A stretch of 30,978 nucleotides of DNA, from IMG/VR virus record IMGVR_UViG_3300043468_000670, positions 1 through 30,978 of that record. One strand, written 5' to 3'. Positions within the stretch are counted from its first letter, which is position 1; each line of letters starts with the position of its first letter. The position numbers were made by a program, and so were the translations under genes. The DNA is from a virus. The notes below the pieces were generated by a model. It saw nothing but the letters and a program-made list of their open reading frames with translations. It did not search any database and was not told where the DNA came from. Positions 1,122 through 29,338 of this stretch are shown here, in pieces.

Positions 1122-4100
1122 TTAAAAAGTTACATCTTTTGTTAATTCTGAGCCATAAGCATCAGTGTATTGCATAATAAGTCTGTTAGAGCCTACATAA
1201 TCAAAAGCTAGATTAACACCAGCATCTGCAGATTTGTTTAAAGGTTGGAATAAACCAGTGCTCCAATCAAATGCCCACATATTATCTTGATCTGCCTCAG
1301 AAGAAGTCCAAACTAATCTGTAATCAAATGTAGGATTTGCTGCGTATATAAGGGCCATTTCATCTTTTGAAGGGATATAAAAATTTAAATTTAATTTTTC
1401 TTCTCTGCTTAATAATGTTACATGACTTATTGCAATTAAACGCTCACTACCAGAAACATATGGATTATGGATTGACGGAGTTATATTTAAATCTACCTTA
1501 TTACTTAATAAATCTGTATTAAATAATCCCGAATTAACACTTTCACTAGTGCCTATTAATTGACCACTAAAATTTTCATACGTTAATCTATAATTATTAG
1601 AAAGTATAGAGTCTGCAAAAATAAAAAGTACGTCATTAATATTTGTTACTAAAACAGAATATTTTTGCAAATCATCATAAGTTGTTTGTTTATTAAAAAT
1701 TTTTCCTTCAACAAATGTATCTGTTTTATATGTAAATGCTATATTATCGCCTATATTTTTTGAGTCAGCAGGTAAAAATTTAGAGTGTAAATTTACAATG
1801 AAATTTTCTTTAAATTGGGGATAATTAAATAAATAATTAACATTTACAGGTGTTTGGGCAAAATTAAGTAAAAAGTCTATATTATTATTTTTAAAGCCAC
1901 TAGGTATAATTAATGGGTATGTTGCGCCACTACCTGTATAATTATCATCATCATAATAAATATTATTAAATTTATTACCTCTTACATTGTCTCCAAATTT
2001 TACACCTGAAACTGGAGATGTAAAAATATTACCCCATTTTCTAGGTGTTATATTAGATGGGTTTTCATTAAATGCTAATAAATTATCGTTATAAGCACTC
2101 ATATATGCTGAGCCATATCCACCAAAATTAGCTCCAATTTCATTGTATGAAAAATTTGGGCCAAAATCATTGTAATAAGCAGAATCTTTAAATGAGCAAG
2201 TATCTATATAAACACCTATATTACCAGTAATTGATTCAAAAAAACAATTGTTAAACCTAGAAAATATATTACGACCAATATTTCTACCTACATTTCCCCC
2301 CATTGATTGGGCTTGATTTTCTACGCAAAGACCTAATGTATTTCGTTCAAATAAAATTATATCATTGTTACGTAACGCTGAAAAGCCATCTAAAACAAAA
2401 TATTCATATGAAATATAAATTGTTTCATTGTCTGTTGACGCTATACATCCAGTCTCTCCAAAATTAGTTGTTTTTATATAAAATGTTGTGTTATTAGCAT
2501 TCAGAAAAGAAAAATTAAATTTAAAATTGTCTGTATCAGCAGTGATAGAAGTTATAATATTATTTGACACTGTGGCTGTAGCAGCAGAATAGAACTTATT
2601 TGATTGATCAAAATATATATATACTGGGTAAACCCCATCAAGTAAAGTGCCAGTTACTGCATTATAATTTATTACATCTGCTTCTGCATCGTAAGTATAA
2701 ATTGTAGGTTTTAAATTAGAAAAATTAATAAAAGTCTTTATGTCATTTTTTTGTATAACAGAAGCAACTGAATTTGGTATCCCAGTACTTGAATAATAAC
2801 CTGTTGAAAAAACTGTTATATTATTATCATTAATATTTCCCCCAGCTAACCAATTATGCTCAAAAAAATCAATATTATTATTAGTCATATTATAATAACC
2901 TAAATATCTAACATCTAAAATATTTTTAAAGTTGTTATTAAGCAAATCTTGATTATTAAATATTGCATTTAAACAATAACCAGTGCAAGTGTTGTTAATT
3001 ATAGTACCAAGAATAGTTGTATCGTAAGTTACATCTAAAAATTTATTATTATAACAAGGTATATCTCCCCCATTAATAATAACATTAGGTAAATCAAATT
3101 TTATACCATAAAAATTTTTTCTACGTGTTATAGAATAATCTGGGTAAGTACCGTTATAATTATAACTTAAATCATTATTACTATTTTTTAAAATATCCCA
3201 TACACCATGTACATAATTGTTTCTAGCATAATTTAAATTATAAAATATAGTTGTTTCATATGAAGAAACAGCAGCTGAATTTGGCAAAGGAAAATGTGAA
3301 ACTATATATGACCCGTCTACAAGAAAAGTTTTAGACCCAACAACACAATTATATCTTTTAAATAATACATGTCTATGGTCAAAATCAGTTCTGTTATTAT
3401 TATGGTCTATACGTTCATATATACGTCCTTTAGTGTAAGCACCTGTTCGATGAGTTGTGTAGTCTAATTTATATTTTAGCTTATCATAAGGATAATTTTC
3501 TTGATAAGCATCACAGTGTAAAATACTATTTGTAAGAGCTAACACGGTCAAAGGCTCTATAGGCCCCATTTTAATTTGAATGTCTTGATTAGCAACTGGA
3601 ACACCTTCTGAAATATAATCAGGCTGCTCATAAATTGTTTGATAATCTGTAATTCTATACAAACTACCTTTAATTAAAGCACCAGTGTTTACTAAAATAA
3701 CTAGTTCATCATAAGTAGTGTCTAATACTTTAACATCAGGGGTAATAATAGTCCCTAATTCTAAATAACCAAATATAATATCTCCATTAATACCTAATTG
3801 ATCTGTAATCAAATCTGTATTACGTTGAGAAAATATTTTGTAAGCATCTGGCCCTTGTCTAACTAACCACATACGAGGATAAAAATCATCGTTCATGTAG
3901 GTTAATCTTCTTAATTCCCAGCCTTGAGTTGTACCATTCCCTAATTTAGTTAAAACGTAGTCACCATTTTTAGTTTTATCTGTTTGTTCTTTTACTAATA
4001 CTTTTAATCCTACATAAGGAGCAATACCTTGTAATGTAGGAAATACAGAAAAGTTAGAACTAGCTAATATAGCGTCTTTTGCAGGAAAATGTACACTAGG

Positions 4101-14374: not shown

Positions 14375-14926
14375 TTAACCGTTTGCTAATTCACCCATTT
14401 CATTATCTAATAATCTTAACGATTCAGGAGATTCTCCAAATGCTGCAAGTTTATCTAACCAAGTTTGCATTTTACCAATTTCTTCTATTTGCTCAGATAA
14501 AAATTTAGCGGCTAATTGATATAACATATGGTCTCCATTTTTCATTGCACATGCTGCAAATTCTTTACATTGTCTAGTAATTTCTACTTCATGGTCATAA
14601 GATAAACGAATTACTTCAGGAAAGCTTTTATATTCCTTAGGCATAATTGCTGGCAATTCTCTAAGCTCAGGTTGTATACCAAGATCTAATAAATAATTTC
14701 TAGCCCAATCAGAATGTACTTCTTCTTCATGTCCATATTTATGCCATAATGCACCTGCCCCTGTATATCCTTTGTTGTTTAAAAACATATACATATTGTG
14801 ATACAATCTAGCTGATTTATCTTCTTCAGTAATGCGGAAATTTAGCATCTCTATGCATTCCTCATTGATAAGACCGTTTTTAACAGCATTATTTTCACTA
14901 TTATTTACTATTTTTTCTAAAGCCAT
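14375..14926 (-). CDS. Ferritin-like diiron protein
   Basis: The 183-residue product reads as a four-helix ferritin-like protein. Residues 30-50 form helix A, with E34/E35 as the likely first metal ligand. Residues 58-80 form helix B with the ExxH motif E68-E-V-H71 (context WHKYGHEEEVH). Helix C contains YDHEVEITRQC with E113, and helix D contains LSEQIEEIGKM with E145, Q146, E148 and E149, the same spacing as the SEQxEE segment of bacterial FtnA. All expected diiron ligand positions are therefore filled. The family oxidises Fe(II) and stores iron, or, in Dps-like members, protects DNA. The A-B loop seems about five residues shorter than in E. coli FtnA. The gene is packed between virion genes, 1 nt after its upstream neighbour and 4 nt before the next, so it is probably expressed late. 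Its location and role are unknown. Confidence 0.85.
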   Translation of the reverse strand: MALEKIVNNSENNAVKNGLINEECIEMLNFRITEEDKSARLYHNMYMFLNNKGYTGAGALWHKYGHEEEVHSDWARNYLLDLGIQPELRELPAIMPKEYKSFPEVIRLSYDHEVEITRQCKEFAACAMKNGDHMLYQLAAKFLSEQIEEIGKMQTWLDKLAAFGESPESLRLLDNEMGELANG

Positions 14927-19041: not shown

Positions 19042-20457
19042 TTATCCTACAAGAGATTCTTGGATAATGAATGATCTGTAAGGGTTGAATACTACAACTC
19101 CTGAGTATCCTAGTAAGTGGTATTCAGAACCAGCAACTGAAGTTGCGATTTCACCTGAAGCAGTACCAGATACACCTCCCATACCTACTAAAGTACCAGA
19201 AATCATTTCTGATCCTTGTAAAGTAAACATAGAAACGTTAGGACGTCCAGAAGAAAGGTCAGCACCTGTATCTAAGAAGATACCGTATCCACCTTCAGGA
19301 TATTCTTGAGAAAGAACCCTGTCTGGCATGAAAGTGATAGTATTACCTTGGAAAGTGTAAGAATCAAATTCAGCACCTAAACTTACTTTACCATTAGCAG
19401 CTTTTGAATAAAAATAAGCAGCGTTAGCAGGAGATAAGTATTTCAAGTCATTACGCATTAATTTACCAATTTGATCGTAGAAACGCTCATTACAAATTAC
19501 TGCATAAATGTTACCTGTAGGAGTTTCTGATTTCTCTCTCATTGCAGAAAGTACATCATCAAATACATCTAAAGTTAACAAAGAGTAAGCAAATTTATCA
19601 CAGTATCTTTCGATTTGTGCAACAACACCATCACCCATAGGGATATCACGACCGTGATCATCTTGATCTAAACAACGACCATTAACATCGTAGTTAGTTT
19701 CAGAGAAAAGACAGTTTTGCTCACGAGAAATTAAGAAAGTATCTAAACATTCTTTTTCTTTCTTGTTCATTTTGAAATATGCGTTTGCATCTTTTTCGTT
19801 TTTACCCATTTGTAAGTAAACTTCTTCGTGTAATGCAAAATCAGATGACCAAGAAACAGAAGATCTTTGACGTGACAAGTAGTTACGGTGAGTCTCTGTG
19901 TTAGAAATGAATTTAGAGTAACCTCTTTCAGACAATTCTGGATGGTAGTTAGAACGGTAACGTGTATCTTTACCAGCAGCCGCATAAGCAGTGTTGATAG
20001 TTTTAGAATAGTCGTTACCAACTAATACTACTTTATATTCCCAACGAGATTGAGCTAATTTTTTAGGCGGAGCAACAACGAATAATTGTTGTTTATTTTC
20101 CAACGTAAAAGTATCGTTTTTATCATAGTAACGCTCAGCTAAAACAATGCTTTCTACATTTTTATTAGCACCATTTCCTGTGATATTACTAACGATTTTT
20201 ACTTTTTTAATAAAGTTAACATCAATAGTCCACTCAATAACCATAGAATTGATAGGAACAAAAGAGTTGCTATCTTTTTTAGGATTGTAATATACGTTTT
20301 TCAACGCATCTGTTAAAGTTGACAATGCTAAGTTTTTATACATTGTAACCACAGTACCTAATTTGTGAGGTTTTGTCCCCAACAAAGTACCAAAATTTTG
20401 TACCGTTTTAGTGTCCCCTAAATGCTGAACAACGGTCGCTCTGTCTACTACTTTCAT
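19042..20457 (-). CDS. Major capsid protein (HK97-fold, crAss-like)
   Basis: This 471-residue protein is placed after a scaffold-like gene and before connector genes, the usual position of the capsid gene. Its sequence is consistent with an HK97-fold capsid protein without a prohead protease: a long N-arm (residues about 1-80), a mixed alpha/beta core with a helix-rich central part (ALHEEVYLQMGKNEKDANAYF, KEKECLDTFLISREQN), and a beta-rich C-terminus ending in HLLGYSGVVVFNPYRSFIIQ. The gene uses many CGT arginine and other apparently favoured codons compared with the AT-rich fibres. It is preceded by a 109-nt leader with a promoter-like motif and hairpin and followed by a strong terminator, all signs of the most abundant virion protein. 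I did not align it, so identity rests on context, size and expression signals. Confidence 0.85.
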   Translation of the reverse strand: MKVVDRATVVQHLGDTKTVQNFGTLLGTKPHKLGTVVTMYKNLALSTLTDALKNVYYNPKKDSNSFVPINSMVIEWTIDVNFIKKVKIVSNITGNGANKNVESIVLAERYYDKNDTFTLENKQQLFVVAPPKKLAQSRWEYKVVLVGNDYSKTINTAYAAAGKDTRYRSNYHPELSERGYSKFISNTETHRNYLSRQRSSVSWSSDFALHEEVYLQMGKNEKDANAYFKMNKKEKECLDTFLISREQNCLFSETNYDVNGRCLDQDDHGRDIPMGDGVVAQIERYCDKFAYSLLTLDVFDDVLSAMREKSETPTGNIYAVICNERFYDQIGKLMRNDLKYLSPANAAYFYSKAANGKVSLGAEFDSYTFQGNTITFMPDRVLSQEYPEGGYGIFLDTGADLSSGRPNVSMFTLQGSEMISGTLVGMGGVSGTASGEIATSVAGSEYHLLGYSGVVVFNPYRSFIIQESLVG

Positions 20458-23881: not shown

Positions 23882-24019
23882 TTAATCTTTATAATTTTTA
23901 ATAAACATTTCTACACCATCTAAACCACCAAAATAATCTAACCATCTTTGTTTATATAATTGATGTTCATTTACAATTACATAAGTTTTAGGGTCTAACC
24001 ATATTTTATACTTTTTCAT
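23882..24019 (-). CDS. 45-residue protein overlapping the portal stop
   Basis: A short ORF starts with ATG at 24019, overlapping the portal stop as ATGA, and ends with TAA at 23882-23884, 5 nt before the next start. The product begins MKKYKIWLDPKTYVIVNEHQ and ends FIKNYKD. It fills the only gap between portal and the 365-residue gene exactly, which argues that it is translated by coupling. The protein is basic, with several aromatic residues (3 Trp/Phe plus 6 Tyr) and no membrane segment. Function unknown. Confidence 0.65.
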   Translation of the reverse strand: MKKYKIWLDPKTYVIVNEHQLYKQRWLDYFGGLDGVEMFIKNYKD

Positions 24020-26382
24020 ATATTATTCTTTACTTCTCTGGCTTGACCTTTAGATTGTTCAGCATATAACTGCTCTCTTTCTAATTGAACTATTTTATTA
24101 TCTTTTATAGATTCATTTTCTGCAACTCTTTGCTCTAATTCTAATTCTTCTTGAGCAATTTCTATACGTTTATCTTCCCTTTGATATCTATATTCTAGTT
24201 CTTTGTTTTTGTATTCTCTATCAACTTTTTCGAGTGCTTCTTTTTCTTGTGTAGTTTTTTGCAATTGATCTTGTAATTGTTTTGTTTGATCTTGCATTTG
24301 TTGTAATTGTTGTTGTAGCTGTTTAATAGCGTCGTTTTCTTCTTTTTTCTTAGCAAGGTTTTTATCTACTAATTTAATAGCTTCAGTAGTTGATTCTGTT
24401 AATAGTAATTTAACTAATATTTCGTCATCCATACTTCCTTTACCTACTAATTGTGGAGCTAAAGCACTGATTTTATCTAATCTTAAAATATCTTTACTAC
24501 TGTTAACAACATGTATGTTATAATCTGTAAATCTAAAATTTTCAGGTATTATATTGAATAATACGGTTCTGTGGCCTAATATATAAGAACCACGTTTACC
24601 TTCTTTGTAAGAAATTTTTGCTAGATTAATTAAATCAATTAACATATTTTTACGAGAAGCAAATACAGATTCAAACATATCTTTAATAATTAAAGAAGTT
24701 TGTTTAATACCTGTTTTTACGTTGCTCACTGCATCTCTTTGTTCTGCTGCTTGATACATATAACGGTTTACACCAGTTACCATATCGGCTTGCTTTTCTA
24801 AAGATTCTAGCACTAAGTTTAAAGATTGTACAACATTGCCATCTAAAGAACCACGGAATTCCCCGTAATGTTGAAATAAGCTTGCTCCTTCTTCTGTAGG
24901 GTCATATAATTCTAAACCTTGTTTACGGAATGCTATAAATTTAAGCATACGTTCCATAAAATCTTGGCCTAATACTTTTGGTATAGCAGCAAGGTTAATA
25001 CGAGAACCATCTACTCCAGAGTTAGCAATAAGGTTATCTCTAAAGAAAGTAATAATGTCGTAAGAATCTTGTATATTTTTAAGAGATAAAGCTAAAGAAT
25101 AAGGCTTTGAATTTCTGTCATTATATACAGTACCATTGTAGGATAAAGTAGTTTTATATGGAGAACTTATACTTCTAGGCGTATGTTTACTTTTACCCAT
25201 ATTTAAGTAAATATCCCAACCAATTCTAATACCTTCGTATTTATCTAATCTATAAACAACATCTCTAGGCTCACCATTACCAGCACCTACACCTAAGTAT
25301 GAATCTGGCACTAAGCTATCTTTCCAATACTCTTTTTTTGAAATATGATTTACTACTTCAAGTTTAGCTTGTTCTTCTTTATCTATTTTAACTTCATTAT
25401 TAGCTAACCATTCAACATGATAAACTGGTAAAGTATCCCAAGTACTGTTTGTATGTTGATCATATACTGCATCTTGTAAATTGTACATGTGGTCTAATTG
25501 TCTAGGGTCACGTATACGGTTTACAGCAGTACTTCTAGCCATACCATATAAAGCAGTTTTTTGTTCATCAGTCATTACATGGCCCCAACGATTAAGAATT
25601 TCGTTCCGTTTCATATAAGTTCTGTGGACTACTGCCATAACATGAGGATCGCCCCCTTCAGCTAAAAATTGATGAGCTGTATTTTTACTAAAAAATACAT
25701 TTTCAGGTTTGCAAATTTCTAATTTTGGATCTCCACCTTCGTAGTCTAAATAAGTACGATAATAAGCTTCACCTGTAACTAAATAATCTATTAAAAATTG
25801 TTTAGCTTTTTGTTTAATATTTATAGTAGGATCTTGTTCAAAAAACTTTAATAAAGATTGAATTGCTATTTCAAAACTAGAAATAAATTCTTCATTTAAA
25901 GATTCTTTAAGAGTTTTTACAAAATTGTTTTCAGTTTTTGTAGCGTCTACAGTTTTATTGTTTCTAATTAGATTTATAGTTTCATTTGTAAACTCATCTA
26001 ATTTTTGCATCATTCTTTTTGTAAACTCTTTTTTCTTTTCTTCTTCTACGTGAGCAACTGTAGTTGTGTCACTGATAGAAACGTGATAATTATACTCTTC
26101 ATCTAAAAACATACCAACCAGAACGTCAATTCTGGTTTTAATTAATGGTGTCATTTTTACAGCTAAAGGAGTTTCTATACCAAAAGTTTCTTCTAAGTAG
26201 CGAAATTCATCTTTATTTCTAACCCCGTCATATAAATTTCTTGCTGTTTTAATATGGTCTTTTTCTCGCACCATAGCAGCAATATAAAAATCAACAGTAT
26301 GACTTAAATAATTAAATCCTGATTTTTCTTCTTCCGATACAGCAGTATCTTCGACATTATAATAACGGCCTAAACTACTCAT
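24016..26382 (-). CDS. Portal protein (crAss-like)
   Basis: The 788-residue protein fits the size of crAss-like portals. The N-terminal block ARNLYDGVRNKDEFRYLEET, then AVKMTPLIKTRIDVLVGMFL (about residues 43-91), matches the conserved opening of these portals (a YYDG...F.YL...PL...RIDVLVG pattern). Middle segments describe the wing and stem (QFLIDYLVTGEAYYRTYLDY, VYHVEWLANNEVK, EGIRIGWDIYLNMGKS). Residues about 590-620 (FESVFASRKNMLIDLINLAK) could be the crown-side helices. The last 110 residues are a Gln/Glu/Lys-rich coiled coil (KQLQQQLQQMQDQTKQLQDQ). The portal forms the dodecameric DNA channel at one capsid vertex. Its gene follows the double-GroES gene by 2 nt, and its TGA stop overlaps the ATG of a 45-residue ORF. 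Confidence 0.88.
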   Translation of the reverse strand: MSSLGRYYNVEDTAVSEEEKSGFNYLSHTVDFYIAAMVREKDHIKTARNLYDGVRNKDEFRYLEETFGIETPLAVKMTPLIKTRIDVLVGMFLDEEYNYHVSISDTTTVAHVEEEKKKEFTKRMMQKLDEFTNETINLIRNNKTVDATKTENNFVKTLKESLNEEFISSFEIAIQSLLKFFEQDPTINIKQKAKQFLIDYLVTGEAYYRTYLDYEGGDPKLEICKPENVFFSKNTAHQFLAEGGDPHVMAVVHRTYMKRNEILNRWGHVMTDEQKTALYGMARSTAVNRIRDPRQLDHMYNLQDAVYDQHTNSTWDTLPVYHVEWLANNEVKIDKEEQAKLEVVNHISKKEYWKDSLVPDSYLGVGAGNGEPRDVVYRLDKYEGIRIGWDIYLNMGKSKHTPRSISSPYKTTLSYNGTVYNDRNSKPYSLALSLKNIQDSYDIITFFRDNLIANSGVDGSRINLAAIPKVLGQDFMERMLKFIAFRKQGLELYDPTEEGASLFQHYGEFRGSLDGNVVQSLNLVLESLEKQADMVTGVNRYMYQAAEQRDAVSNVKTGIKQTSLIIKDMFESVFASRKNMLIDLINLAKISYKEGKRGSYILGHRTVLFNIIPENFRFTDYNIHVVNSSKDILRLDKISALAPQLVGKGSMDDEILVKLLLTESTTEAIKLVDKNLAKKKEENDAIKQLQQQLQQMQDQTKQLQDQLQKTTQEKEALEKVDREYKNKELEYRYQREDKRIEIAQEELELEQRVAENESIKDNKIVQLEREQLYAEQSKGQAREVKNNI

Positions 26383-26384
26383 TG

Positions 26385-26984
26385 TTATTTATCAATAGTG
26401 TATAAAATATCAAAACTTTGAAGAGTCTTTAATTTTAAATTATTTTCATTTACAATTAAATTACCACAATAAGGTTCAAATGCTACAATTGTTCCAGCTG
26501 GATATTGGTCTGCATTTTTTGCGCAACTAATCACTTCTCCTTTTTGTGTGACTGCTTCTCTGGCATCATTTGCAGTATCATCATAGATACCATTTTCAAT
26601 CAAATTTTCGCCTATAATTTTTACTAAAATTCTTTCTCCTGTTGGTTGTATTGTTTTTTCTGTCATATCATCAAAATTAGAAGTTACTATTGCCACAATA
26701 TCTGATCCTCTTACTACTTTGCAATAACCATCGTTAGTTGCAGTTGCAAATCCAGCAAATTGTGAAAAAATAATATTTGTATTTGGTTTTACTTCAGGGC
26801 ATTGCTCTTTATCTTTAGCCGCAGGCCCTAGTTTTAAAGCTTTACCATAATAATACTCTATATTAGTTTTAGTAGCTAATTGTTGAGCACCTTGATAAAT
26901 ATTATTTTTAATCTTTTCTAATTCTGTAATTTCAGCTAAAACATGATAATTTTTAGGAGAAATACTCTTTTTACTTATTTTCAT
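26385..26984 (-). CDS. Co-chaperonin-like protein with two tandem GroES domains
   Basis: The 199-residue protein reads as two GroES (Cpn10)-like halves. Residues 10-100: NYHVLAEI, then a loop containing NNIYQG, then YYGKALKLGPA, VKPNTNIIFSQFAGF, and the closing VVRGSDIVAIV. Residues 112-199: IQPTGERILVKII, a loop containing NGIYDD, TQKGEVISCAKNADQYPAGTIVAF, then NLKLKTLQSFDILYTI. In GroES the mobile loop (GGIVL) contacts GroEL; here both loops keep an N[NG]IY equivalent. The family caps the GroEL chamber, and T4 gp31 does this for capsid folding. A role in helping host GroEL fold the capsid protein is therefore plausible. The gene lies between terminase and portal; a 59-nt gap with a palindrome precedes it. 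Sequence identity to GroES is low, so the assignment is by pattern. Confidence 0.8.
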   Translation of the reverse strand: MKISKKSISPKNYHVLAEITELEKIKNNIYQGAQQLATKTNIEYYYGKALKLGPAAKDKEQCPEVKPNTNIIFSQFAGFATATNDGYCKVVRGSDIVAIVTSNFDDMTEKTIQPTGERILVKIIGENLIENGIYDDTANDAREAVTQKGEVISCAKNADQYPAGTIVAFEPYCGNLIVNENNLKLKTLQSFDILYTIDK

Positions 26985-27043: not shown

Positions 27044-29338
27044 TTAATCATAAATATACTGTGGATTTTTTGGATCAGTCATATCTATCCATCTAACTCC
27101 ACCGTGATCTAAAAATGATTTAGCTATAGATCTGTCTAATTCTTTTTGAGCATCAGATTTATTTGGTATTACGCCGTACTTTTTTTGTCCAGTTGCTGGA
27201 TCAGTATAATAACCAAATAATTGAAATTGTTCTGTAGCAGCTTCTTTAGGTTTAGCTATTGCACCCATTAAATCTTCATCAGATAACTCACAAAGACCCA
27301 TAGCAATAACAAAGTCAAATTTTGTACGATCTTCTCTATTATAATCTTGTAGTTGTTCTAACAAATCAGGAAAATATATAGTGTCATAAAAATCATCTAT
27401 GTAAGCTTTTATTTTTTGATCTTGGTGGTCTATGATAGGCCCACCTGCAGTAGTACCTATAAGCTGTGTTTGTTTTCTAGGGTCTGCATTTTGCAAATTA
27501 ATTGTAGGTCTTTTCTTTAATAAATGGTAAAAACCGTTATCACGAAAATGACCAACTATACCAATTTTAGTATACTCTATATTTACTTCTGCGTTATAAT
27601 AATAGGCTAATTTTAAAGCGTTGTCCCAATCACTTCTAACATCATTAGATCTTTTCTTATAACTTGCAACATATAAATTAGATGTAGTTCTAAAATAACC
27701 TTTATCTAGTATACGTTTCTTTATAAGTATAGCTAATTCAGAACCTTTTTTACTATTAGTTGCATGTGAAGAATCCCCTGTACCTTGGTCAATACTATCG
27801 GCCCCGCCTACATAAAGATTTGGTAAAGGTTGTTTTTCATTTTCTAAAGCGTGCTCTGTAAGCCAATGTGGGTGCTCTAATATATGTATATCTCCCATAG
27901 GACTAGGATCCCACTCTACACCTATAATTTTACCATTTTCAGCACGTTTCCATTTAAGAAAACCTTTTTCTGGTTTAGGTAAATCTTTATTCATTTGAAT
28001 ATTTATACGTTGAGTAGCAATTTTGTCTTGATCAAATATATTACTACCTTTGCGTATAAATACTTCTTTAATAGTCATAGGGTATTCTTGTAGTAAACCT
28101 AAGTAAACAGTAGGATCAGCCTTGGCAGCTTCACGTTCTTGCATTACTTCTGATGTAGCTTGAGTTACATCTGGGCAACCTGTTACTTCCCAAGTACCTG
28201 CACGCTTAATATGTGTAGGGCAAAAGAAACCTGAAGCCACACCAAAATCATAAGTAGGTAAAATTTCATGTGCGTCTGGGTTGCAAAATATACCTTCTGC
28301 TTCATCATTTTCTACAGTACCACCTGTACCTGAATAATATACTTGACATTTTTTGATACTACCCATTACATACCAAGAACCACGACTTTCTCTTTTACAA
28401 GCGCCTAGCGAACCTTTTTGATGAGATGGTGGAAACGCCGCAAACTCTTCTACTAATTGTTTAGTAGGACGTTTACCTCTGGTTTTACCTGGGTTTTTAC
28501 CGTATACAATTTTTTCAAATTTAGATAAATGCCCGCGTTCTTCTTTAGTGCCATCTGGTAGATCTACAGTTTCACCTGAATATTTTACTTCAGCAGAATC
28601 ATCAATAAGTTTTAATTTTAAAACTCTATGTAACCTTTCTATAGCACCAAGACCTTCTTCAATTTTACGCCAAGCTTCATCAGTAGTAACTTCGTTTGTA
28701 GAAGAAATTAATGTATGACTACCGGGAAATAAACGGAACTCTCTATCTAATACATTATTGATCATATATGATTTACCTACACCACGACCACCCATTATAG
28801 AAACATCTTTATTATTTAAATATGCTTTCCAAGAGTAGTCAAAGAAATACCTATCTATATTACAATATTGTGGATGTGAAGTAGTAAAATCTTCTGTAGG
28901 CTTACCTTCTGAATCGTAAATAGGCACTGGAAATACAAATATATTTACCCAGTAAACAAAAAATGGATTATAATATTCTCCGTCTACCCACACTCCACGA
29001 TAACAAAAATTAATAAGTGGATTATACCACTCTTCCATATCTAAACTGTCAGGGTGATAATTTGGTATTTCTCGCCAAGCTATAAGTTCTTTTGGTAAAG
29101 GTCTATATACTAAATAATCTGTAAGTTTAATTTCTTCTTCACCTGTTACAACTCCGTGTAATTTTTTAGGTGCATCAGTAACTTCAAATTCACCATTCCA
29201 TATTCTACTTTGATCATCAGTTTTTAAAAATTCTAATGAAAAAGGATCATATTTATTTTTAACACCAATTAAAGTAGGTATTTTATGAACATTAACATTT
29301 CTAAGTTTTTTCTTAACTGTTGATTTAATACTATTCAT
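27044..29338 (-). CDS. terL: Terminase large subunit
   Basis: The 764-residue protein has both terminase activities: an ATPase that drives DNA packaging and a nuclease that cuts the concatemer. Residues 183-190 (GGRGVGKS) are the Walker A loop. Residues 294-299 (QLVEEF) are the Walker B strand with its catalytic Glu pair. The nuclease domain shows the three acidic positions expected of the RNase H fold: D514 in VGGADSID, E588 in NIEYT, and D675 in KFDFVIA. The N-terminus of about 175 residues before Walker A is longer than in compact terminases but normal for crAss-like ones. The start overlaps the preceding gene by 8 nt. It acts at the portal, whose gene is two positions downstream. Confidence 0.95.
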   Translation of the reverse strand: MNSIKSTVKKKLRNVNVHKIPTLIGVKNKYDPFSLEFLKTDDQSRIWNGEFEVTDAPKKLHGVVTGEEEIKLTDYLVYRPLPKELIAWREIPNYHPDSLDMEEWYNPLINFCYRGVWVDGEYYNPFFVYWVNIFVFPVPIYDSEGKPTEDFTTSHPQYCNIDRYFFDYSWKAYLNNKDVSIMGGRGVGKSYMINNVLDREFRLFPGSHTLISSTNEVTTDEAWRKIEEGLGAIERLHRVLKLKLIDDSAEVKYSGETVDLPDGTKEERGHLSKFEKIVYGKNPGKTRGKRPTKQLVEEFAAFPPSHQKGSLGACKRESRGSWYVMGSIKKCQVYYSGTGGTVENDEAEGIFCNPDAHEILPTYDFGVASGFFCPTHIKRAGTWEVTGCPDVTQATSEVMQEREAAKADPTVYLGLLQEYPMTIKEVFIRKGSNIFDQDKIATQRINIQMNKDLPKPEKGFLKWKRAENGKIIGVEWDPSPMGDIHILEHPHWLTEHALENEKQPLPNLYVGGADSIDQGTGDSSHATNSKKGSELAILIKKRILDKGYFRTTSNLYVASYKKRSNDVRSDWDNALKLAYYYNAEVNIEYTKIGIVGHFRDNGFYHLLKKRPTINLQNADPRKQTQLIGTTAGGPIIDHQDQKIKAYIDDFYDTIYFPDLLEQLQDYNREDRTKFDFVIAMGLCELSDEDLMGAIAKPKEAATEQFQLFGYYTDPATGQKKYGVIPNKSDAQKELDRSIAKSFLDHGGVRWIDMTDPKNPQYIYD

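Follow-up and report, generated by a model that had tools for sequence, protein, structure and literature searches.

The window analysed here, meaning the whole stretch of DNA under study, is a virus record of 30,978 bases from IMG/VR and represents a fragment rather than a whole genome. On its minus strand lies an open reading frame of 199 codons, from ATG to stop, that encodes a protein with two GroES-like domains. The gene is flanked by the terminase and portal genes, all three being read from the minus strand, and the gene for the major capsid protein is found in the same window. The four genes are as follows:

26385..26984, minus strand: tandem Cpn10 (GroES-like) gene, candidate co-chaperonin; ATG start, 199 aa, 22.0 kDa
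27044..29338, minus strand: terminase large subunit, neighbouring gene; 764 aa; phrog_6681, E 5.3e-48
24016..26382, minus strand: portal protein, neighbouring gene; 788 aa; phrog_6547, E 2e-47; 20-30% identity to Crassvirales portals
19042..20457, minus strand: crassvirus major capsid protein, 471 aa, 52.7 kDa (predicted); PF23898 Crass_capsid, E 5.6e-19

A previous sequence-only reading of this DNA had placed the reading frame at exactly these positions and had described it as lying next to the portal and the terminase; the PHROG matches of the two flanking reading frames bore this out. The window also encodes a muzzle protein (PF25731, E 2e-41), and ring protein 2 was weakly matched. Judged by its capsid, muzzle, portal and terminase matches, the phage is a crassvirus. 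The tail module includes a ferritin/Dps-like gene (14375-14926, minus strand; PF00210, E 6.7e-19), and DpsA genes are annotated in the crassviruses crAss001 and cr111_1 as well. A search of the window for RNA elements returned none at Rfam thresholds.

Two Cpn10 domains in one chain

The protein divides into two halves of similar length, each of which was compared separately with known families and folds:

26673..26984, minus strand: N-terminal Cpn10 domain, residues 1-104; Pfam Cpn10 E 5e-4 when scanned alone; VIA-align matches
26388..26672, minus strand: C-terminal Cpn10 domain, residues 105-199; Pfam Cpn10 E 8.4e-3 when scanned alone; profile and fold matches

The complete protein matched the Pfam family Cpn10 (PF00166) in two stretches with an E value of 9.5e-8 and 32.4 bits, above the cut-off of 21.1. 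When the halves were scanned alone, Cpn10 was the top family both times, with scores just under the curated gathering score; the match of the C-half spanned profile positions 2-90 of 93. In the relative G004 (L047), each half separately exceeded the Cpn10 cut-off, with 24.7 and 23.6 bits, and Cpn10 was matched by all 13 members scanned from the first family alignment, the best of them at 1.5e-12. Furthermore, a profile of the N-half aligned with a profile of the C-half end to end, with 90-94 columns in register, a probability of 96 and a score of 54. As controls for this score, the columns of the C-half were shuffled 100 times and the C-half was also reversed, which gave maximum scores of 25.7 (n=100) and 12.7, respectively. 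Since the observed score exceeds every shuffled or reversed control, the two halves are, on profile evidence, homologous Cpn10 domains, and the two-fold layout lies far beyond chance. A profile search of PDB sequences with the C-half (alignment A4) returned Cpn10 or Cpn20-type proteins as its six best matches.

Structure prediction led to the same assignment. An AlphaFold2 model of the whole protein, built on the 13-member alignment, had a pLDDT of 77 and a pTM of 0.76, and its best match in the PDB was the Chlamydomonas CPN20 (7ekq chain R; Foldseek E 4.5e-8). Superposition of the model on this chain with VIA-align gave a Z score of 14.6 over 178 residues at 3.6 A. Because one rigid superposition covered both domains, their predicted relative placement is Cpn20-like, and the modelled arrangement appears to resemble that of CPN20 in its seven-domain cap. 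The N-domain matched 1p3h (Z 10.4) and T4 gp31 (1g31; Z 8.3) in VIA-align. As a single domain could fill the match list of the whole model, the C-half was also predicted alone (pLDDT 82). The first 16 entries in its VIA-align list were all Cpn10, GroES, Cpn20-type or gp31 structures (Z 7.4-10.6), and alcohol dehydrogenase chains that share the barrel ranked below them. Each domain is therefore a Cpn10 beta-barrel in the predicted models, both in the whole protein and, for the C-half, in isolation.

The sequence-only reading had proposed two fused GroES-like domains in one phage protein, to be checked half by half against profiles and against the structures of GroES and T4 gp31. This proposal held at the level of sequence, internal duplication and predicted structure: Cpn10 was the best family for each half, although below the gathering cut-off, and both halves matched Cpn10 folds. 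Its comparison with plastid Cpn20 was apt, CPN20 being the top PDB match by both structure and sequence.

Two other explanations of these matches were rejected. A chance resemblance, or an over-reading of short motifs, was ruled out by the shuffled and reversed controls and by two independent structure predictions. The 'GroES-like' domain of alcohol dehydrogenases (PF08240) was touched weakly by 5 of the 13 members scanned; it was discarded because alcohol dehydrogenase chains rank under Cpn10 in every structure search and the protein has no Rossmann domain.

Loops, conservation and distribution of the family

Viral contigs were scanned with the tandem protein, with its two neighbours (portal and terminase) and with the family alignment as it grew. 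This gave a family of 23 aligned members, some of them near-identical, and the two-domain architecture is present in all 23. Both domains contain an equivalent of the GroES mobile loop:

26856..26921, minus strand: N-domain mobile-loop equivalent, residues 22-43, with NNIY at 27-30; pLDDT below 50 over exactly residues 22-43
26547..26609, minus strand: C-domain mobile-loop equivalent, about residues 126-146, with NGIY at 131-134; pLDDT below 50 within residues 128-134

In the C-domain the low values fall on residues 128-130 and 132-134. The motifs listed in the sequence-only reading were broadly right, in that the two N[NG]IY elements occupy corresponding positions of the two halves and are modelled with low confidence, as loop-like segments. 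The mobile loop of GroES is anchored by the tripeptide I-V-L. At the positions aligned to it, most members of the family carry [NDGE]-x-[IV]-[YF], a descriptive pattern that was written after viewing the alignment. The [IV] residue is kept in both halves of all 23 aligned members and is followed by Y or F in 19 of the 23 N-halves, while G-[IV]-[YF] is found in 22 of the 23 C-halves; in a few members the anchor reads [IV] followed by K, E, H or I, which departs from the canonical I-V-L. Each half thus has the flexible loop with a hydrophobic anchor that is typical of Cpn10, with Y or F replacing V-L. In the alignment with E. coli GroES, the C-half lacks 9 residues of the roof loop and the N-half 3.

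Pairwise dN/dS ranged from 0.08 to 0.34 for the N-half and from 0.08 to 0.20 for the C-half. As these ratios are low in each half, both domains are, by this measure, under purifying selection and kept by it. The C-domain has the invariant residues C154, F169, P171, G174, N175 and K186-T187. Those that go beyond a plain GroES (C154 and P171-x-x-G174-N175) may hint at another role. An invariant C62 in the N-domain, like C154 and the PxxGN motif (171-175) of the C-domain found in 23 of 23 members, is atypical of GroES.

The position of the gene within the packaging module is equally constant. In all eight of the more distant relatives whose reading frames were read, the tandem gene lies between the terminase and the portal. 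In one relative, L026, a reading frame of 548 aa (L026 5667-7313) is inserted between the terminase and the tandem Cpn10 gene. The terminase reading frames of two others, L027 (2465-5854) and L038 (3-2492), are longer, that of L027 measuring 1129 aa versus 764, and both contain an inserted stretch that, by eye, resembles an intein carrying a homing-endonuclease domain. Upstream of the terminase in L025, a reading frame at 2557-3474 resembles a patatin-like phospholipase, again by eye, from its GGGYRG and GTSTGS motifs.

Two scans of 85,000 bacterial and archaeal genomes detected no relative of the tandem protein, and a bacterial or prophage origin of the gene was rejected on this basis. Likewise, tblastn at E 1 identified no relative of the tandem gene in the annotated phage collection, and the A3 profile did not match any of 15 reference phages in a comparison run without a positive control.

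Known two-domain and phage co-chaperonins

The closest parallel in design is the Cpn20 of plastids and apicoplasts (Chlamydomonas CPN20, Arabidopsis Cpn20 and P. falciparum cpn20), which likewise packs a head-to-tail pair of Cpn10 domains into about 195 residues, shares the predicted relative domain placement and is the best PDB match by profile and fold. However, the identity to Cpn20 is only 17-19%, the roof loop of the C-domain appears, by alignment, to be lost, and the anchors are of the [IV]-[YF] type. Plastid and apicoplast proteins carry a transit peptide, whereas the present protein is encoded by a phage gene and has a short N-terminus that lacks such a peptide. We therefore refer to it as Cpn20-like by design and do not class it as a plastid Cpn20. 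We infer that the phage and Cpn20 fusions almost certainly arose independently.

Among phage proteins, T4 gp31 and RB49 CocO likewise combine the Cpn10 fold with a late, capsid-building context, their roof is reduced as that of the tandem protein appears to be by alignment, and each half of the tandem protein matches gp31 with Z scores of 8.1-9.3 in the predicted models. In contrast to gp31, which has one domain per chain and forms a heptamer, the tandem protein carries two domains per chain and so falls outside the gp31 type. E. coli GroES and the bacterial Cpn10 proteins (PF00166) share its fold, mobile loop and strand order, but E. coli GroES has one domain, a full roof loop and the I-V-L anchor. 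Crassviruses themselves encode 'putative 10kDa chaperonins' (crAss001 gp15, cr85_1 gp90 and cr111_1 gp85) that are likewise of Cpn10 type and located a few genes from the terminase. Unlike the tandem protein, these have a single domain of 132-136 aa, and their genes lie on the opposite side of the terminase gene; their profile similarity to the tandem family is weak, too weak to decide whether the tandem protein descends from them.

A further case is the 'co-chaperonin GroES' gp096 of the Cellulophaga phage phi18:3 (Pachyviridae; L061 41458-42060), a protein of 200 aa encoded two genes from the terminase. The structure predicted for gp096 can be aligned with the tandem protein from end to end, whereas only its C-half is recognised as Cpn10 by sequence, and the phage has a second, single-domain GroES. 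On the basis of the models, gp096 probably represents another tandem Cpn10 that arose independently. It was rejected as a sequence relative of the family, since no sequence similarity was found between them. Most of the tandem protein is likewise covered by structural alignments to three viral models in BFVD. As a separate observation, a 117-kb unannotated gut phage encodes, near its terminase, a Cpn10-like protein of 183 aa whose N-terminus is extended by 65 residues (L008 1281-1832).

The sequence-only reading had called tandem Cpn10 fusions unusual in phages. This was right as far as it went, but there are precedents in the single-domain 10kDa chaperonins and the GroEL of crassviruses and, probably, in the tandem GroES of phi18:3. 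The open-access literature that we searched yielded no report of a tandem phage Cpn10 or of a crassvirus chaperonin. Besides a reported apicoplast protein, tandem co-chaperonins were described in 2013 as occurring only in chloroplasts and algae (PMC3542282). So far the design is known mainly from the plastids of plants and parasites, and its poor fit to the seven-fold GroEL has puzzled researchers there for a long time. This phage family, which seems to have arrived at the design on its own, adds another and simpler setting for studying why two domains are fused. The finding further suggests that crassviruses, which are very abundant gut viruses, rely on a chaperonin lid of viral origin to fold their capsid protein. 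It should interest specialists on chaperonins and crassviruses.

A putative chaperonin lid and its partner

The reading that we favour, and consider likely, is that of a phage co-chaperonin of Cpn20 design that serves as a lid for GroEL, with the capsid protein as its most likely phage client. By analogy, the tandem protein would probably cap the chamber of a host or phage GroEL, thereby serving capsid folding and helping virus assembly. In each chain a short linker connects the two Cpn10 beta-barrels head to tail, and both barrels bear a flexible, [IV]-[YF]-anchored loop; several chains placed side by side would form a ring, as in GroES, gp31 and Cpn20. With their mobile loops inserted in the apical domains of a GroEL ring that has bound ATP, these chains would seal the chamber around a phage protein; the best candidate for this client is the 53-kDa capsid protein, a product of the same late module. 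If the roof loop is missing in the C-domain and shortened in the N-domain, as the alignment suggests, the top of the cage may be open as in gp31. In T4, gp31 lacks roof loops, has longer mobile loops and makes the cage larger for the 56-kDa gp23 (PMC6318259). The sequence-only reading had suggested that the protein could form an asymmetric cap suited to the large capsid protein; the predicted capsid protein is near the gp31-dependent gp23 in size.

Several points speak against a lid. The half-by-half Pfam scores of the window protein are under the curated cut-off, the loop anchor is non-canonical, the C-domain has invariant residues that a plain GroES lacks, and an even number of domains mismatches the seven-fold GroEL. 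The even-numbered Cpn20 does function on seven-fold GroEL, the solutions demonstrated for plastid Cpn20 being seven-domain mixed rings with single-domain partners and six- or eight-domain homo-oligomers that act asymmetrically (PMC5780408; PMC3542282). For the phage protein, conceivable rings would comprise three copies plus one host GroES, giving seven domains, three copies alone, or, as for plastid Cpn20, four copies with one domain left over. The single-domain partner in a mixed ring would have to be host GroES, because a search of eight records for a single-domain Cpn10 partner gene found none.

The partner of such a lid need not be the GroEL of the host, since a close relative encodes its own. 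Contig G001, an 88%-identical relative of 69,350 bases, carries the following gene:

4211-5782 of L057 (contig G001), minus strand: divergent phage GroEL, among replication genes and far from the tandem gene

Its product is a Cpn60 of 523 aa (PF00118, 155 bits) with 31.7% identity to E. coli GroEL. The catalytic residues D52, D87 and D398 are kept, and apical positions that contact the lid are changed (L234K, V263A and V264K). A scan of viral contigs for further copies of this GroEL found it only in contig G001. Seven other records with the tandem gene are without both this GroEL and its neighbouring primase gene; because the adjoining primase is missing too, they do not cover the region and are silent on GroEL. 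Phage GroEL as such is already known: 275 records of the annotated phage collection have similar GroELs (best identity 34.5%), and the reference crassviruses phi14:2 and cr111_1 carry an annotated GroEL, accompanied in cr111_1 by a 10kDa chaperonin near the terminase.

Conceivably, the tandem protein could be the dedicated lid of a phage-encoded GroEL and not of the host's, a possibility that we regard as somewhat doubtful. The GroEL of the 88%-identical relative, with its catalytic residues kept and its lid-contact positions changed, speaks for this possibility. However, the 31-kb fragment in the window has no GroEL, the GroEL and lid genes of the relative are far apart, and crAss001 has a 10kDa chaperonin without any GroEL. 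Taken further, a crassvirus lineage might possess a complete chaperonin machine of its own, made up of the divergent GroEL and a co-evolved two-domain lid, possibly with a symmetry or stoichiometry other than seven-on-seven and with an open roof that suits the capsid protein; this seems to us distinctly improbable.

The remaining alternatives take one or both domains out of the lid. That the Cpn10 fold is reused outside chaperonins, for example in a ring-shaped assembly factor, a minor portal-region component of the virion or a blocker of host GroES, would fit the location of the gene among packaging genes, and the presence of plastid Cpn20, Cpn11 and Cpn23 chains on ClpP in 7ekq, according to its title and chains, indicates that Cpn10 rings can have other partners. 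Such reuse nevertheless appears very unlikely given that the loops are kept in both halves, that chaperonin genes recur in crassviruses, with GroEL plus Cpn10 in cr111_1 and GroEL in the relative G001, and that the 10kDa chaperonin of crAss001 (gp15) is absent from the main text of the structural atlas of that phage. It is also unlikely, in our estimate, that only one domain forms the lid while the other, probably the more conserved C-domain, is a binding or docking module that brings a specific phage protein, such as capsid, portal or terminase, to GroEL. The invariant residues of the C-domain, a dN that is lower in the C-half in most pairs and the constant position between terminase and portal would agree with docking. 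On the other hand, the C-domain anchor G-[IV]-[YF] is kept in 22 of 23 members, which would be unexpected without GroEL contact, and the C-half, when taken alone, still matches Cpn10 first.
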